Shown piece by piece: positions 22,832-43,058 of a stretch of 64,000 nt of DNA (position 1 is its first letter; each line of letters begins with the position of its first letter). Both the position numbers and the translations under genes were made by a program. Below the pieces are notes generated by a model that worked only from the letters and a program-made list of their open reading frames with translations, did not search any database and was not told the origin of the DNA. Source of the DNA: Aquisphaera giovannonii (GTDB taxonomy: Bacteria; Planctomycetota; Planctomycetia; Isosphaerales; Isosphaeraceae); assembly GCF_008087625.1 (NCBI RefSeq), contig NZ_CP042997.1:248001-312000 (forward strand), in the 5' to 3' direction.

Positions 22832-23704
22832 TTGCCCGCCACCGAAGAAGGTGAACCCAAACCCAGCCCGGCGCTCGCCCTGGCGTGCGTCGGCCGGGTC
22901 GAGGGCGGGGGCGTGACCGATCGGCCCGACGCGCTGGCCGTGGAGGAGCCCCTGGAGATCCGGCTGGGGCTCGACGCGGATGGCCGGCGGTCGCGCCGGG
23001 CGATCTCGGTGACGATGCGGACGCCGGGCCACGACGAGGACCTGGCCGTCGGCTACCTGTTCACCGAGGGGCTGCTCGAGCGCCCGGGCCAGGTCGCGGG
23101 CGTCCGGCCGTGCCGGTCGGGGAGTGCGGTCCGCGTGGACCTCCGCCCCGGCGTGGCGATCGATCTCGCGAGGCTCGAGCGCCGCTCGTTCGCGTCGTCG
23201 AGCTGCGGCGCCTGCGGCAAGACGTCGCTGGAGGCCGTCGGGATCGATCGCCTCCCGATGGTGGACGGGCCCGGGCCGGTCGTGGACCCGGCGGTCGTCC
23301 GCGGGCTCCCCGGGGCGCTGAGGGCGTCGCAGCCGACGTTCGACCGGACCGGCGGGCTGCACGCCTGCGCCCTGTTCGACCCGTCGGGCCGGCTGCTCTC
23401 GGTCCGCGAGGACGTGGGCCGGCACAACGCCCTGGACAAGCTGATCGGCGCCGAGTTCCGGGCGGGCCGGGCCCCGCTGTCGGGCGCCGTCCTGCTGCTG
23501 AGCGGCCGGGTGGGCTTCGAGCTGGTCCAGAAGGCGGCGATGGCGGGGATCCCCGTCGTCGCCGCGATCGGGGCCCCGTCGAGCCTGGCCGTCGCCGCGG
23601 CCGGGGCGTGCGGGATGACGCTGCTCGGGTTCGTGCGCGACGATCGATTCAACATCTACTCCGGCGCGGCGCGGGTCGCCGTCGGCGGACGTTCGGCGCG
23701 GTAG
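22832..23704 (+). CDS. fdhD: FdhD, formate dehydrogenase sulfurtransferase
   Basis: 290 residues. FdhD passes sulfur from a cysteine desulfurase to the molybdenum (Mo-bisMGD) cofactor of formate dehydrogenase in the cytoplasm. Conserved marks are DALAVEEPLEIRLG, RTPGHDEDLAVGYLFTEGLL, the active loop SSCGACGKTS, LFDPSGRLLSVREDVGRHNALDKLIG and SGRVGFELVQKAAMAGIPVVAAIGAPSSLAV. The start is TTG 22832 with GGAG 8 bases upstream. It lies 40 bases before the formate dehydrogenase genes, which fits its role. Confidence 0.93.
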   Translation: MPATEEGEPKPSPALALACVGRVEGGGVTDRPDALAVEEPLEIRLGLDADGRRSRRAISVTMRTPGHDEDLAVGYLFTEGLLERPGQVAGVRPCRSGSAVRVDLRPGVAIDLARLERRSFASSSCGACGKTSLEAVGIDRLPMVDGPGPVVDPAVVRGLPGALRASQPTFDRTGGLHACALFDPSGRLLSVREDVGRHNALDKLIGAEFRAGRAPLSGAVLLLSGRVGFELVQKAAMAGIPVVAAIGAPSSLAVAAAGACGMTLLGFVRDDRFNIYSGAARVAVGGRSAR

Positions 23705-23744: not shown

Positions 23745-26700
23745 ATGTTCCGGCTCCCCTCGTTCATGCAGTCCTCCGGCGGCGCGTCGCAGCCGGCCAG
23801 CCCGCAGACCGCGGCCAAGGCGTCTCGCCTCCGGGGCGCGACGGTCGTGGAGGCGGTCTGCCCGTACTGCGCCGTCGGCTGCGGGCAGCTCATCTACACC
23901 AAGGGCTCGGCCATCGTCGACATCGAGGGGGACCCGCGCAGCCCGATCAGCGAGGGGGCCCTCTGCCCGAAGGGGGCGAACGCCTACCAGCTCCCGGTCA
24001 ACCCGCACCGGGTGCGCGAGGTGCTGTACCGGGCCCCCCATTCGGACCGCTGGGAGACGAGGCCGCTGGACTGGGCGATGGGCCGGATCGCCGCGAAGAT
24101 CAAGGAGGCGCGCGAGGCCGACTTCCGCCGCGCCAGCGAGGCCGGCGACCGCGTGAACGGGTTCTCCACGGTGGGCGTCCTGGGCGGGGCGACGCTCGAC
24201 ATCGAGGAGAACTACCTGATGAAGAAGCTGTTCTCGGCGGGGCTGGGCATCCTCCCCATCGAGAACCAGGCCCGAATATGACACTCCGCCTCGGTGCCCG
24301 GTCTGGGCGCCTCGTTCGGCCGCGGCGCGGCCACCAACTACCAGCAGGACCTGGCCCACTCGGACTGCATCCTGTTCATGGGCTCGAACATGGCCGAGGC
24401 GCACCCGGTCGGCTTCCGGTGGCCCATGAAGGCGAAGGAGAAGGGGGCGACGCTCATCCACGTGGACCCGCGGTTCTCCCGGACCTCCGCGCTGTGCGAC
24501 GTCTTCGTCGGCATCCGCGCCGGCACGGACATCGCGTTCCTCGGCGGCCTGATCCGCCACATCATCGAGAACGGCCGCTGGTTCAAGGAGTACGTCCTGG
24601 CGTACACCAACGCCTCGACGATCATCGAGGAGGGCTACCGCGACGCGGAGGACCTCGAGGGCCTCTTCTCCGGCTTCCACCCCGAGACGAACTCGTACGA
24701 CGCCGCCGACGGGCACTGGGAGTACGAGGGCGAGGGCAAGGACGCCGGCCCCGGGCCGAAGAAGGACCGGCACGGCGGGCGGGGCGTCCACGGGCACGCC
24801 CAGCAGGGCAACGTGGAGGAGACCCACACGCCCGAGCGCGACCCGACCCTCCAGCACCCCCGCTGCGTCTTCCAGCTCATCCGCCGGCACTTCGCCCGCT
24901 ACACGCCGGAGCTCGTGGCGCGGGTCTGCGGCTGCCGCCCCGAGGAGGTCGTCCGCGTCGCCGAGCTGCTGTGCGCGAACTCGGGCCGCGAGCGGACGAC
25001 GGCCCTGGTGTACGCCGTCGGCTGGACCCAGCACACGACCGGCGTGCAGATCATCCGCTGCGGCGGGATCCTGCAACTGCTGCTGGGCAACGTTGGCCGG
25101 CCCGGCGGCGGCGTGATGGCCATGCGCGGGCACTCGAGCATCCAGGGCTCCACCGACGTCCCCACGCTCTACGACCTGATGCCCGGCTACCTGCCGCAGC
25201 CGAAGGCCGACGCCGACCACGAGACGCTCGACGCCTACGTCGAGCACGAGGCGCCGTCGCGCGGCTACTGGTCGAACTTCCGCAAGTTCGCGGTCAGCCT
25301 GCTGAAGGCCTGGTACGGCGACGCCGCGCGGCCGGAGAACGACTTCCGCTACGACTGGCTCCCGCGGATCGACGGCGACTACTCGATGCTGCTGACCTTC
25401 GACCGGATGTCCCGGGGCGAGATGAAGGGGTACATCCTCATGGGGATGAACCCCGGCGGCGGCGGGATGAACGCCCGGCTCCACCGCGCCGGGCTGCGCA
25501 ACCTGGACTGGCTGGTGGTCGCCGACTGGTTCGAGACCGAGAGCGCCGTCTTCTGGAAGGATGACCCCGAGGCCCCGCCCCCCTCGGAGATCAAGACCGA
25601 GGTCTTCTTCTTCCCGGCCGCCGCGGCGCCCGAGAAGGACGGCACGCTGACGAACACGCAGCGGCTGCTCCAGTGGCACAACCAGGCGATCGACCCGCCG
25701 GGCGACTGCCGGTCGGACGCCTGGTTCGTCTACAACCTGGGCAAGCGGCTGAAGGCCCTGTACGCCGGCTCGACCGACCCGAAGGACCAGCCGCTTCTGC
25801 ACCTGACCTGGGACTACGACTTCGAGGGGCCCCACCGCCTGCCCGACGGCGCGATCAGCCGGATCGAGGGGGAGCCCGACGTCGCCCGGATCCTCCAGGA
25901 GATCAACGGCCACGACCTGTCCGACATCGACCCGAGGACCGGCCGGCCCCGCCTGCTCCCCGACTTCTCGGCCCTGGCGGACGACGGCTCGACGGCCTGC
26001 GGGTGCTGGATCTACTCCGGCGTGTATCCCGAGCCCGGCCGGAACCGCGCCAACGAGCGGAAGCGGCGGCACGACCCGCTGTCGGTCGAGCCCGACTGGG
26101 GGTTCGCCTGGCCGCTGAACCGCCGGGTGCTCTACAACCGGGCCTCGGCCGACCCCGAGGGCCGGCCCTGGTCCGAGCGGAAGAAGCTCATCTGGTGGGA
26201 CGAGGCCGCCGGCCGCTGGGTCGGCGCCGACGAGCCCGACTTCGAGGTCACCAAGCCGCCGGGCTATCGGCCCGGCCCGGACGCCCGGGGGATGGACGCC
26301 ATCGCCGGCGACGCGCCGTTCCTGTTCAAGCCCGACGGCCTGGGCTGGCTCTACGCGGCCGGCGGCGTGAAGGACGGGCCGATCCCGACGCACTACGAGC
26401 CGGTCGAGTCGCCGGTCGGCAACCTGCTGTATCCCCGCGTGACCTCGGACCCGCTCGTCCGCATCCCGGAGAACCCGCTGAACCCGGTGGCGCTCGCCCC
26501 GACGGCCGAGTTCCCGGTCGTCGCCACCACGTTCCGCCTCACCGAGCACTACCTGAGCGGCCCGATGAGCCGGTTCAACTCCTGGCTCAACGAGCTCCAG
26601 CCGGAGATGTTCGTCGAGCTCAGCCCCGAGCTGGCCGCCGAGCGCGGGATCGAGCACGGGGGCTGGCTCACGGTCCGGTCGGCCCGAGGGCGGATCGAGG

Positions 26701-27020
26701 CCCGGGCGATGGTCACCCGGCGGATGCGGCCGCTGGTCGTGGAGGGCCGGGTCGTCCACCAGGTCGCCATCCCGTTCCACTGGGGGTTCGCCGGGGAGAC
26801 CGTCGGCGGCAACGCCAACGACCTGACGTCGATCGTCCTGGACGCCAACGTGAGCATGCACGAGGCGAAGGCCTTCGCCTGCGAGGTGGGGCCCGGGCGC
26901 CTGCCCGGCCCGCGCCCCGGCCCGACGAAGCGGCCGGTCGCCTGGCCCACGCGCGACCCGGTCCCCGACACCCCGACCGCCGCCCAGCCCGAGGGGGGAT
27001 TCGCGCATGGCCGTGAGTGA
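23745..27020 (+). CDS. fdhA: Formate dehydrogenase alpha subunit, selenocysteine-containing
   Basis: 1091 residues when TGA at 24279-24281 is read as selenocysteine (residue 179); otherwise the gene appears as two frames, 23745-24281 and 24294-27020. Around the UGA the protein reads ENQARI-Sec-HSASVPGLGASFGRGAATNY, matching the NQARV-Sec-HGPT site of E. coli FdnG/FdoG. An N-terminal [4Fe-4S] site has Cys39, Cys42, Cys46 and Cys74 (CPYCAVGC, LCPKG). The large Mo-bisMGD domain follows, and the C-terminal domain has FRLTEHYLSGPMSRF and GGWLTVRSARGRIEA. No twin-arginine signal peptide is visible at the start, unlike FdnG, which suggests a cytoplasmic-side enzyme. It overlaps the beta gene by 14 bases. 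Confidence 0.92.
24279..24311 (+). promoter_or_regulatory. UGA selenocysteine codon with bacterial SECIS hairpin
   Basis: TGA at 24279-24281, 11 bases of spacer, then GGTGCCC-GGTCT-GGGCGCC at 24293-24311: a 7-base-pair stem (one G-U) with apical loop GGUCU. The E. coli fdhF element has the same spacing and an AGGUCUG apical loop, the part read by SelB. The match in spacing, stem and loop is direct; binding by SelB is inferred. Confidence 0.9.
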
Positions 27021-27975
27021 GCTGGAAGTCGCCGCACGCCCGTCGCCGCCGGAGACCTCGCCCCGGCGCGGCCTCGCCGCGTCCCTGGCGAGGCGCCTGG
27101 TCGGCCCGTTCCTCCGGGGCGAGATGCCCCCGCCCCGGCCGGCGACCGGCTTCTACACCGACACCACCGTCTGCATCGGCTGCAAGGCCTGCGAGGTGGC
27201 CTGCAAGCAGTGGAACCAGCTCCCCGCCGACGGGTTCCGCTGGACGGGCAACAGCTACGACAACACCGAGACCCTCTCGGCGTCCTCCTGGAGGCACGTC
27301 AAGTTCGTCGAGCAGTTCGCCGGCCCCGAGCCCCCCGCGACCCCCGGCGACCCGGCGGTTGCGGCGCCCCGGGACCTGACGGTCCACGACCTCCTGGGCG
27401 ACGGCCCGTCCGGGCGCTGGCTGATGATGAGCGACGTCTGCAAGCACTGCGTCGCCGCCCCCTGCCAGCACGCCTGCCCGACCGGCGCGATCATCTACAA
27501 CGAGTTCGCCAACGTTTATATCCAGCCGGACATCTGCAACGGCTGCGCGTACTGCGTGGCGGCCTGCCCGTTCGGCGTGATCACGCGGAGCGCGATCGAC
27601 GGCGTGGCCCACAAGTGCACGCTCTGCTACGACCGCCAGCGCGACGGCCTGACCCCCGCCTGCGCCAAGGCCTGCCCCACGGCCTCCATCCAGTTCGGGC
27701 CGATCGAGGAGCTTCGCGAGCGGGGCCGCCGCCGGGTCGCCGAGCTGCATGAGCGGGGCGTGCACGCCGCCCACCTCTACGGCGACGAGTCGACCGACCG
27801 CTACTCGAGCCTGAACTCCTTCTACCTCCTGGTCGACCGTCCGGAGGTCTACGGGCTGCCCGGGGCCCCGTCGAACCCCTGGCTGTCCATGCCCGGGGAT
27901 TACGGGCGGGCGGCCCTGACCGGGCTGCTGACCCTCGCCGCGATGCTCGCGGCCCTCTTCCTCTCGGGGCGTTGA
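27007..27975 (+). CDS. fdhB: Formate dehydrogenase iron-sulfur beta subunit
   Basis: 322 residues. Carries electrons from the alpha subunit to the membrane subunit through four [4Fe-4S] clusters: CIGCKACEVACKQW, CKHCVAAPCQHACP, CNGCAYCVAACP and CTLCYDRQRDGLTPACAKACP. A C-terminal hydrophobic helix (AALTGLLTLAAMLAALFLSG) anchors it in the membrane, as in FdnH. It overlaps the alpha gene by 14 bases and precedes the membrane subunit by 4 bases, so the three are one translation unit. Confidence 0.93.
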   Translation: MAVSELEVAARPSPPETSPRRGLAASLARRLVGPFLRGEMPPPRPATGFYTDTTVCIGCKACEVACKQWNQLPADGFRWTGNSYDNTETLSASSWRHVKFVEQFAGPEPPATPGDPAVAAPRDLTVHDLLGDGPSGRWLMMSDVCKHCVAAPCQHACPTGAIIYNEFANVYIQPDICNGCAYCVAACPFGVITRSAIDGVAHKCTLCYDRQRDGLTPACAKACPTASIQFGPIEELRERGRRRVAELHERGVHAAHLYGDESTDRYSSLNSFYLLVDRPEVYGLPGAPSNPWLSMPGDYGRAALTGLLTLAAMLAALFLSGR

Positions 27976-27979
27976 CGCG

Positions 27980-28900
27980 ATGACGACCCTCGGCGACCGC
28001 GAGCCGACGAAGGCCCACTCCGGATACCTCGGGGCCGAGGTGACCAAGGCGCCCGACTGGCACGGCCTGGTGACGCTGGACCTCCTGCTCAACAACCTGA
28101 CGACCGGCCTGTTCCTCGCCGCGGCCGTCGGCGAGCTGGCCCGGCCTGCGCTCATCGGCCCGGTCGCGCGGCTGGCCTACCCGATCGCGCTGGTCGCGCT
28201 GCTGGCCGACCTGCTCTGCCTGGTCGTCGACCTGGGGAACCCGACGCGGTTCCACCACATGCTCCGGGTGTTCAAGCCGACCTCGCCGATGTCGCTGGGC
28301 GTCTGGTCCCTGACGGCGTACTCGCTGCCGTTGACCCTCGTCGTCGCGATCGACCTGTTGGGGTGGCTCGGCCTGCTGCCGTCGTCCGGCGGCGTGGGCC
28401 TCGCGCGGGGGGCGATCCTCGCGCTGGGCCTCCTGCCGGCGTTCGGGTCGGCGATCTACAAGGGGGTGCTGTTCAGCACGAGCTCGCAGCCCGGCTGGAA
28501 GGACGCACGCTGGCTGGGGGCCTACCTCGTGAGCTCGGCCCTGATGTACGGCGCGGGGGGGCTCTACGCCCTGGCGATCCTCGCGGGCCTCGAGGCGGCC
28601 GGCCCGCTCCGCTGGGCGTTCGCCGCGCTCGTCGCGACGAACCTGGTGCCCCTGGGACTCCTCGCCGCGGGCCTCCACCCGGCCCTGGCCCGGGTGCACC
28701 ATCGCGGAGGCCTGTACCGGCTCGGCGCGCTGGCCGCCGGCGTCGGCGTCCTGGGCCCGCTGGCCCTCGTCCTGGCCTCCGGCGGCGAGCCTGCGGCCTG
28801 GGCGGCGCTCGGCGGCCTCGTCCTGGGCGGCCTCGCCTGGCGGCACGCCATCGTCATGCTGCCCCACGGGGCCCCGCACGGGGCCGGGAGCCCCGGATGA
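27980..28900 (+). CDS. NrfD/PsrC-type membrane subunit
   Basis: 306 residues with about eight membrane helices. The family block DLGNPTRFHHMLRVFKPTSPMSLGVWSL marks it as NrfD (polysulfide-reductase type), a heme-free quinone-reacting anchor. Canonical formate dehydrogenase N uses a cytochrome b gamma subunit instead, so this operon is a variant that pairs an FdnG/FdnH-like catalytic arm with an NrfD anchor. It probably passes electrons from formate to the quinone pool. The His-rich tail is short. Confidence 0.9.
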   Translation: MTTLGDREPTKAHSGYLGAEVTKAPDWHGLVTLDLLLNNLTTGLFLAAAVGELARPALIGPVARLAYPIALVALLADLLCLVVDLGNPTRFHHMLRVFKPTSPMSLGVWSLTAYSLPLTLVVAIDLLGWLGLLPSSGGVGLARGAILALGLLPAFGSAIYKGVLFSTSSQPGWKDARWLGAYLVSSALMYGAGGLYALAILAGLEAAGPLRWAFAALVATNLVPLGLLAAGLHPALARVHHRGGLYRLGALAAGVGVLGPLALVLASGGEPAAWAALGGLVLGGLAWRHAIVMLPHGAPHGAGSPG

Positions 28901-42042: not shown

Positions 42043-42780
42043 TTGCGCCAAGAAGCTCGGGAAGGGAGGAGAGCCATGGCTTGAAACCTATCGTCGGGAA
42101 CCCTGCGGGTAACCAATCCCGTCCGGCAGAGCCGGGCCAGCAGCCGGAAGCGAGTCTTGCGTGGTGGGCGGGCGACCGCCCCTGCGAAGCGTAGACAGCG
42201 AGACCAGACGCCGTGTGATTGAGCCTCGAAATCTCCTCGCAGTGAGCCCTCGCCTTGGTCAGCCGCGGGGGCCGAGTCGTGCCGCCCGCACCTGGACCCA
42301 CAGGGGCAGCACGGTCACGCCGGGGTCGGAGAGCAGGGCGAATGGTCGCGAGGGATCCCCTGAGAACTTGGGAGGCCCCGACGCCTCCACCGCAGAGCCG
42401 GCAGGAGATACCGGCATACCAACTCCGGGATGATCCGCGGCCCCGCGACCGGGGCCGTCGGGGACGAACGACGGTCGCGGCGGTGGTATCGCCGAGCGAA
42501 GGAAACGAAGCGAGGCGAGACGGGCGGCGGGGAGTCGGAGCGTCTCATAGTACCGACGAAGCGGGGGGACCAGCCCGAGGGACGCCGTGGAGGGAAGGAG
42601 GCGCCATCTCGGGACCCGTCGGAGGGAAACAGGACCGGTACACCGAGACCGGGGCCATGTCCACGCAACGACGACGGACCGCGCAGGCCGCGGACTCCTG
42701 AGATGACGAGCCGGATGCGGGCAATCCGCACGTCCGGATCTGCGGGAGCCCCGGGTGAGCCATCACCCGGGGCGACCCGG
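42043..42780 (+). mobile_element. Group II intron lacking its reverse transcriptase
   Basis: The 5' end TTGCGCCAAGAAGC resembles group II starts (GTGCG), with G replaced by T. Domain V is intact at 42708-42741: 34 bases, GAGCCGGATGCGG-GCAA-TCCGCACGTCCGGATCT. Domain VI follows as hairpin CCCCGGGTGA/TCACCCGGGG (42749-42772), and the 3' end is near GCGACCCGG (42780). Between the early domains and domain V only an N-terminal piece of the intron protein remains (frame to 42701: GVGASHSTDEAGGPARGTPWREGG ... MSTQRRRTAQAADS), and the RT and maturase parts are gone. It could splice only with help in trans. Confidence 0.8.
42490..42701 (+). pseudogene. Truncated intron-encoded reverse transcriptase/maturase N-terminus
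   Basis: The frame reads GVGASHSTDEAGGPARGTPWREGG and MSTQRRRTAQAADS before a stop. These match the short lead-in and first residues of group II intron RT proteins, but the RT, maturase and endonuclease domains are missing because of an internal deletion. The deletion endpoint lies between 42701 and domain V at 42708. Confidence 0.7.
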
Positions 42781-43058
42781 CCCGCGGGTGTGTGTGACCC
42801 CGCGGGTGTGACCCCGCGGGTGTCGCCGGCGGCGGCCGTCGACGGGACCTGATCGCGGCGAAATCGAGTTGATGAAGCGGCCCCCGGCGTGGGGGTCAGG
42901 GGGGAGCTATGCACCGCGAGCTCGGCGAAGCCCCAGGCCCGCCGAGGTTGCAGCGACACTTGCTCATGCGTCGTCGGGCGGCCGGCGTATGAAATACCCG
43001 GGCTAGCTCTCCCGGAACGGCCACCGCCCCGGCGGAGCGGTAGCTTAACTCAACGCGG
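42781..43058. other. Intron-flanking spacer with short tandem repeats
   Basis: Downstream of the intron lies GTGTGTGTGACCCCGCGGGTGT, with GACCCCGCGGGTGT repeated in tandem at about 42795-42826. It then runs to the operon end at 43059. No gene seen. Confidence 0.45.

Follow-up and report, generated by a model that had tools for sequence, protein, structure and literature searches.

Selenocysteine-containing FdhA proteins are well documented, 103 of them being counted in the relevant part of one earlier survey (PMC1794560), and planctomycete selenoproteins have been described from the Porphyra isolates P1 and P2. P1 is reported to carry a selenocysteine fdhA along with dispersed sel genes, and full selenocysteine-insertion sets occur in Isosphaera pallida and Gemmata obscuriglobus (PMC4807772). 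Planctomycete selenoproteins, a selenocysteine fdhA included, are hence already published, and the gene analyzed here is a further example. It lies in a stretch of 64,000 nucleotides (hereafter the window; C1:248001-312000) of the Aquisphaera giovannonii genome (Planctomycetota, Isosphaeraceae; 10,526,296 bases on 3 contigs). P1 shares with this genome a planctomycete selenocysteine fdhA and dispersed sel genes, and Isosphaera pallida, a relative in the same family, has a sel set too; the fdhA of P1 adjoins nuoEF, whereas the one in the window adjoins iron-sulfur and NrfD-like genes (PMC4807772). Our literature searches retrieved no paper linking Aquisphaera with selenocysteine and none on selenoproteome and Planctomycetota; the literature on Isosphaeraceae and formate dehydrogenase yielded a report whose strain, in the section consulted, is described as having no formate dehydrogenase (PMC12603096).

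In the open reading frame listing of the window, fdhA appears as two mechanical frames (23745-24281 and 24294-27020), exactly the split that the first-pass annotation had foreseen for automated calling. Reading through the UGA at 24279-24281 restores one frame on the forward strand, which extends from the ATG at 23745 to a UGA stop at 27018-27020 and comprises 1091 codons with no further stop, thereby correcting the annotation of a gene that mechanical calling cuts in two. The 1091-residue product, assigned as selenocysteine formate dehydrogenase alpha subunit, scored above the cut-offs of TIGR01553 (993.1 versus 814.2 bits) and NF041513 (formate_DH_Act; 1469.9 versus 1400), the latter scan covering the FdhA of the window alone. 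Among solved structures, the PDB matches included formate dehydrogenases, some of them named selenocysteine-containing, and the best relative was E. coli FdnG (1KQF), which aligns with the catalytic chain over residues 22-327 and 358-1047. The selenocysteine alpha subunits used for comparison were FdnG, 1H0H and 8CM4/6SDR.

On either side of the UGA, the sequence aligns with FdnG and with other formate dehydrogenases, and the UGA itself (residue 179) together with the following histidine matches a non-standard residue X and a histidine in 1KQF (chain A) and 1H0H, X in these chains standing for selenocysteine. The proposal that the in-frame UGA occupies the catalytic position of FdnG is thus borne out by the alignment. 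At the same position, 9QM0 is written with C in an entry named selenocysteine-containing. From the UGA onward, FdhA reads U-H-S-A and does not carry the U-H-x-P motif listed for the formate dehydrogenase family in the accessible part of a recent description (PMC13188914). As the 1H0H chain likewise reads X-H-S-A, U-H-x-P is not universal in the family.

Downstream of the UGA, a spacer of 11 nt (CACTCCGCCTC, 24282-24292) leads into a predicted bacterial SECIS hairpin on the forward strand (24293-24311), built from GGTGCCC (24293-24299), the loop GGTCT (24300-24304; GGUCU in the RNA) and GGGCGCC (24305-24311), with letters and positions as they had been proposed from the sequence at first reading. 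The stem consists of seven continuous pairs, one of them G-U, and the loop starts 18 nt after the UGA. In the part of the published bSECIS model considered here, loops span 3-9 nt and stems 4-16 bp, a G is found within the first two loop positions and the UGA-to-loop distance is 16-37 nt (PMC13188914); the fdhA hairpin, with its 5-nt loop, 7-bp stem, initial GG and distance of 18 nt, conforms to these published rules. A layout near identical to that of E. coli fdhF had also been suggested. This holds for the loop, GGUCU starting 18 nt after the UGA in both genes, but not for the stem, which is interrupted in folded fdhF and continuous over seven pairs in the window. In E. coli fdnG, fetched along with fdhF as a control, AGTCT starts at the same distance of 18 nt. 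Moreover, the glycine codon GGT is used only once among the 111 glycine codons of fdhA, namely at 24300, in the loop.

Folding energy gave z = -2.53 relative to shuffles for 24288-24316, and z = -0.59, i.e. no better than shuffles, for the 42 nt from 24279 to 24320; in DNA as GC-rich as this, such energies carry little weight on their own. When the whole genome was searched with a model of the fdhA SECIS, this was the one site returned, which is no independent proof given that the model includes this very sequence; the same search did not report the element of SelD (see below), which sits further from its UGA. Using Rfam at gathering thresholds, we found no SECIS match in the window and only pieces of group II introns. 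The latter are matches to the domains RF02005 and RF00029 within 42113-42781 (forward strand), about 370 nt apart, and no open reading frame of at least 180 aa on the forward strand covers them; this segment would represent either a group II intron without reverse transcriptase or a remnant.

We then turned to homologues. The alignment holds 89 rows (all 80 loci of one homologue set and 9 family loci covering the site, >300 bits), which include same-genome copies and near relatives and do not amount to 89 independent observations. At the selenocysteine position, 78 rows have UGA, 9 have UAG and 2 have a cysteine codon (TGC). All 87 UGA/UAG rows have the inner six stem pairs in standard form, and in 63 of them the complete stem of seven is standard, the outermost pair being non-standard in 20 of 65 distinct rows. 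The cysteine rows, from Arthrobacter and Sinomonas and the only two available for contrast, keep 5/7 and 4/7 pairs, and both have lost the loop-closing pair. The loop reads GGTCT in 63 and AGTTT in 3 of 66 distinct UGA/UAG rows. UGA and hairpin are shared with the window fdhA by homologues in Actinomycetota, Chloroflexota, Acidobacteriota and Binatota.

Within the stem, the silent third bases Val-3 and Gly-3 face each other, and they pair in 66/66 distinct UGA/UAG 48-mers (Watson-Crick in 54/66), compared with a mean of 29.7 and a maximum of 46 in 10,000 shuffles. In a broader pairing test, for which near-copies were removed to leave 73 of the 87 rows (65 distinct; 500 shuffles), 95.6% of stem cells were paired versus a shuffled mean of 86.9%, with 0/500 shuffles as high, and sliding the stem register by 1-3 reduced pairing to 28-61%. 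Two of the five covariation measures lay within the shuffle range in these 73 rows; both-sides-changed pairs were as high in 245/500 shuffles and further pair types in 68/500. Compensatory change is located mostly in one pair (columns 18/30). These data indicate that the base pairing of the fdhA hairpin is maintained by compensatory change, and the silent-position pairing across phyla provides a clean example of a SECIS conserved as RNA within a coding sequence.

The same alignment bears on whether fdhA is a pseudogene or the product of a sequencing error, in which a cysteine codon (TGC or TGT) became TGA and left the enzyme dead or misread. A single-base change would be enough, and TGC is found in 2/89 rows; against this stand UGA or UAG in 87/89 rows, the silent covariation that maintains the hairpin, the 1091 codons devoid of another stop and the sel set encoded in the genome, which together render such an origin exceedingly improbable.

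Among the rows with UAG in place of UGA, all nine belong to Geodermatophilaceae (L058, L060, L062, L068, L079, L083, L095, L097 and L098), and the hairpin after the codon is intact. A tRNA-Sec with anticodon CUA and Sec-TAG formate dehydrogenases are already on record for this family, according to the part of the publication consulted (PMC5330540).

The first-pass annotation had predicted that the genome should encode SelA, SelB, SelD and tRNA-Sec, and each was found above its curated cut-off: SelA at C1:5920142 (475.4 versus 267.9 bits; N-terminal domain PF12390), SelB, 643 aa, at C1:9392011 (370.5 versus 242.25; winged-helix domain PF09107), SelD at C1:9201676 (350.3 versus 125) and tRNA-Sec with anticodon UCA at C1:8657727 (77.1 versus 47). 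It had also named two observations that would speak against selenocysteine, i.e. absence of the sel set, or a sense-codon homologue with no trace of read-through here; we looked for both and found neither. A second match to the tRNA-Sec model (C1:2324810; 47.9 versus 47 bits) is called tRNA-Ser by ARAGORN and was rejected. The sel genes are dispersed, the closest two, SelB and SelD, being about 190 kb apart and none lying near the fdhA operon, whereas a match to SelA, SelB or SelD was present in the fetched flank at 23 of 90 homologous loci, all from Actinomycetota apart from one of Granulicella.

With this machinery at hand, plain readthrough or a reassigned UGA (e.g. UGA = Trp) can be weighed as an alternative to selenocysteine. 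The frame is indeed open beyond the UGA. Nevertheless, UGA also serves as the stop of fdhA and of its two downstream neighbors, SelA, SelB, SelD and a tRNA-Sec(UCA) are all present, and the sense replacements among homologues are cysteine (2/89 rows), so that we regard a decoding of this kind as scarcely conceivable.

SelD is itself a UGA gene (L018 1501-2430, reverse strand), with the UGA in the context CAG-Sec-AGK and a hairpin of 6 pairs whose loop, GGUCC, starts 26 nt after the UGA. Of 29 family rows, 15 have UGA, and every one of these retains 6/6 pairs as well as a G within the first two positions of the loop; among the 14 cysteine rows, 9 of which are distant SelDs, one keeps 6/6 pairs, its loop starting AA. 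Folding of the SelD hairpin stretch alone was no better than shuffles. The SelD of a genome of the same genus (G001, L156) has TGT at the UGA site and retains 3/6 hairpin pairs; UGA in the window's genome versus TGT in G001 is a predicted Sec/Cys swap of SelD within one genus. The machinery could accordingly be kept for SelD or another protein, with the fdhA UGA decoded poorly or not at all in normal growth. The UGA and hairpin of SelD itself, and the location of the sel genes away from fdhA, would fit such a division of labor, but the fdhA hairpin is kept at silent positions across phyla, and we consider it very unlikely. On the strength of the DNA and its homologues, the UGA at 24279-24281 is almost certainly the selenocysteine codon of a functional selenoprotein gene; fdhA is a real selenoprotein gene, but of a well-known type.

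Regarding its surroundings, fdhA is preceded by fdhD (22832-23704, forward strand), which encodes the accessory sulfurtransferase for formate dehydrogenase (PF02634; TIGR00129, 150.2 bits versus a cut-off of 140.9; NF001943, 262.3, slightly under the cut-off of 269). Overlapping the end of fdhA is a gene for an iron-sulfur subunit (27007-27975, forward strand) with 4Fe-4S dicluster domains (PF13247 above cut-off) and, by hydropathy, one C-terminal hydrophobic helix; its best NCBIfam match, TIGR01582, stayed below cut-off. It is followed by a gene for an NrfD-like membrane subunit (27980-28900, forward strand; PF03916, 41.8 versus 25.8), a putative quinone-reducing anchor with eight hydrophobic peaks, some overlapping, that scored far under the cut-off of TIGR03148. 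The order FdhA-FeS-NrfD is found in 69 of the 90 loci examined, many of whose flanks end at contig ends.

In FdnGHI and FdoGHI, the alpha subunit bears a Tat signal and the gamma subunit is a cytochrome b, the latter being the membrane subunit of FdnGHI. FdhA, in contrast, has no such signal: the first 40 residues contain no RR of a twin-arginine leader, and the interval from the preceding stop (23616) to the ATG at 23745 offers no ATG, GTG or TTG. Its third gene is NrfD-like. The formate dehydrogenase of the window thus probably faces the cytoplasm, and the predicted enzyme resembles FdnG in its catalytic chain alone, its architecture being unlike that of FdnGHI.

A survey of 45 Isosphaeraceae genomes returned a long-form fdhA match with in-frame TGA in 11, the codon position being checked base by base in nine of these (all except G002:C26 and G015:C612); G005 has fragments only, which do not cover the site. 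SelA exceeded its cut-off in 30/45 genomes, and tRNA-Sec was found in 28/45 at E <= 1e-9, under stricter filters. Each of the 11 genomes with the long-form gene has at least one of the two (SelA 10/11, tRNA-Sec 8/11), and one or the other is missing in G002, G015, G016 and G018, perhaps because their assemblies are incomplete. No long-form match was obtained in the 13 genomes that lack both SelA and tRNA-Sec. Since the 21 other genomes have SelA or tRNA-Sec and lack a long-form TGA match, the selenocysteine trait is wider than the fdhA gene.

Across Planctomycetota, a match to the SECIS model was obtained in 28 of 149 sampled genomes, counting that of the window. The first-pass annotation had described selenoproteins as reported only in part of the planctomycetes; by this figure, selenocysteine use extends beyond a minor fraction of the phylum. 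At 27 of 29 other matching loci, the center of the locus shows an in-frame TGA followed by His in a molybdopterin-oxidoreductase-like motif; for the remaining two (L199 and L204), shorter than the others, the reading missed the relevant position. Judged by motif, most proteins at these loci appear to be of other types.

Of nine other Isosphaeraceae loci fetched, eight (L184, L185 and L187 to L192) have another, distant gene of formate-dehydrogenase-like type containing an in-frame UGA (CNRT-Sec-HAPSVAGL), after which GGTCT is found in a hairpin context. In the window's genome, no gene of this type was seen among the three listed of four matches, nor was there a second such SECIS. At the locus L186 (G007:C3:573600-576600), a molybdopterin-oxidoreductase match contains a single in-frame TGA, and its Sec-aligned residue is cysteine (TGC); in G007, no SelA above cut-off and no tRNA-Sec were found.

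In a FastTree phylogeny that combined the window with 50 homologue rows out of 89 (51 rows in total), the window falls into a starred set of 14, consisting of 7 Planctomycetota, 3 Acidobacteriota, 1 Binatota, 1 Gemmatimonadota and 2 unlabelled rows, and its nearest fork has a support of 84 only. Under starred support, planctomycete rows are mixed with rows from Acidobacteriota, Binatota, Gemmatimonadota and Abditibacteriota. Two genomes of the window's own family, G003 and G025, have a distant form placed far away in the tree beside an Anaerolineales row. Transfer of fdhA between phyla appears likely on this basis, within the limits set by labels of metagenome bins. More tentatively, the selenocysteine FdhA-FeS-NrfD operon might be a mobile module that passes between phyla and among the genes keeping the planctomycete selenocysteine trait alive, a possibility to which we give less than even weight; mislabelled metagenome bins or paralogues are alternatives to the mobile-module reading.

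The DNA itself shows the reading frame with its UGA, the covarying hairpin, the presence of sel genes and the order of the genes, and established knowledge of the families suggests how selenocysteine insertion, enzyme activity, metal, electron route and topology would follow. In this model, SelD would supply selenophosphate and SelA would convert seryl-tRNA-Sec(UCA) to selenocysteyl-tRNA. SelB would bind the GGUCU hairpin after the UGA through its C-terminal winged helix and bring selenocysteyl-tRNA, upon which the ribosome would insert selenocysteine at residue 179 of FdhA. Sec-179 would coordinate the molybdenum or tungsten of the active site, and electrons from formate, entering probably from the cytoplasmic side, would pass via the 4Fe-4S clusters of both FdhA and the iron-sulfur subunit to the NrfD-like subunit and the quinone pool. 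Overall, Aquisphaera giovannonii and a number of its relatives are predicted to need selenium for formate oxidation.
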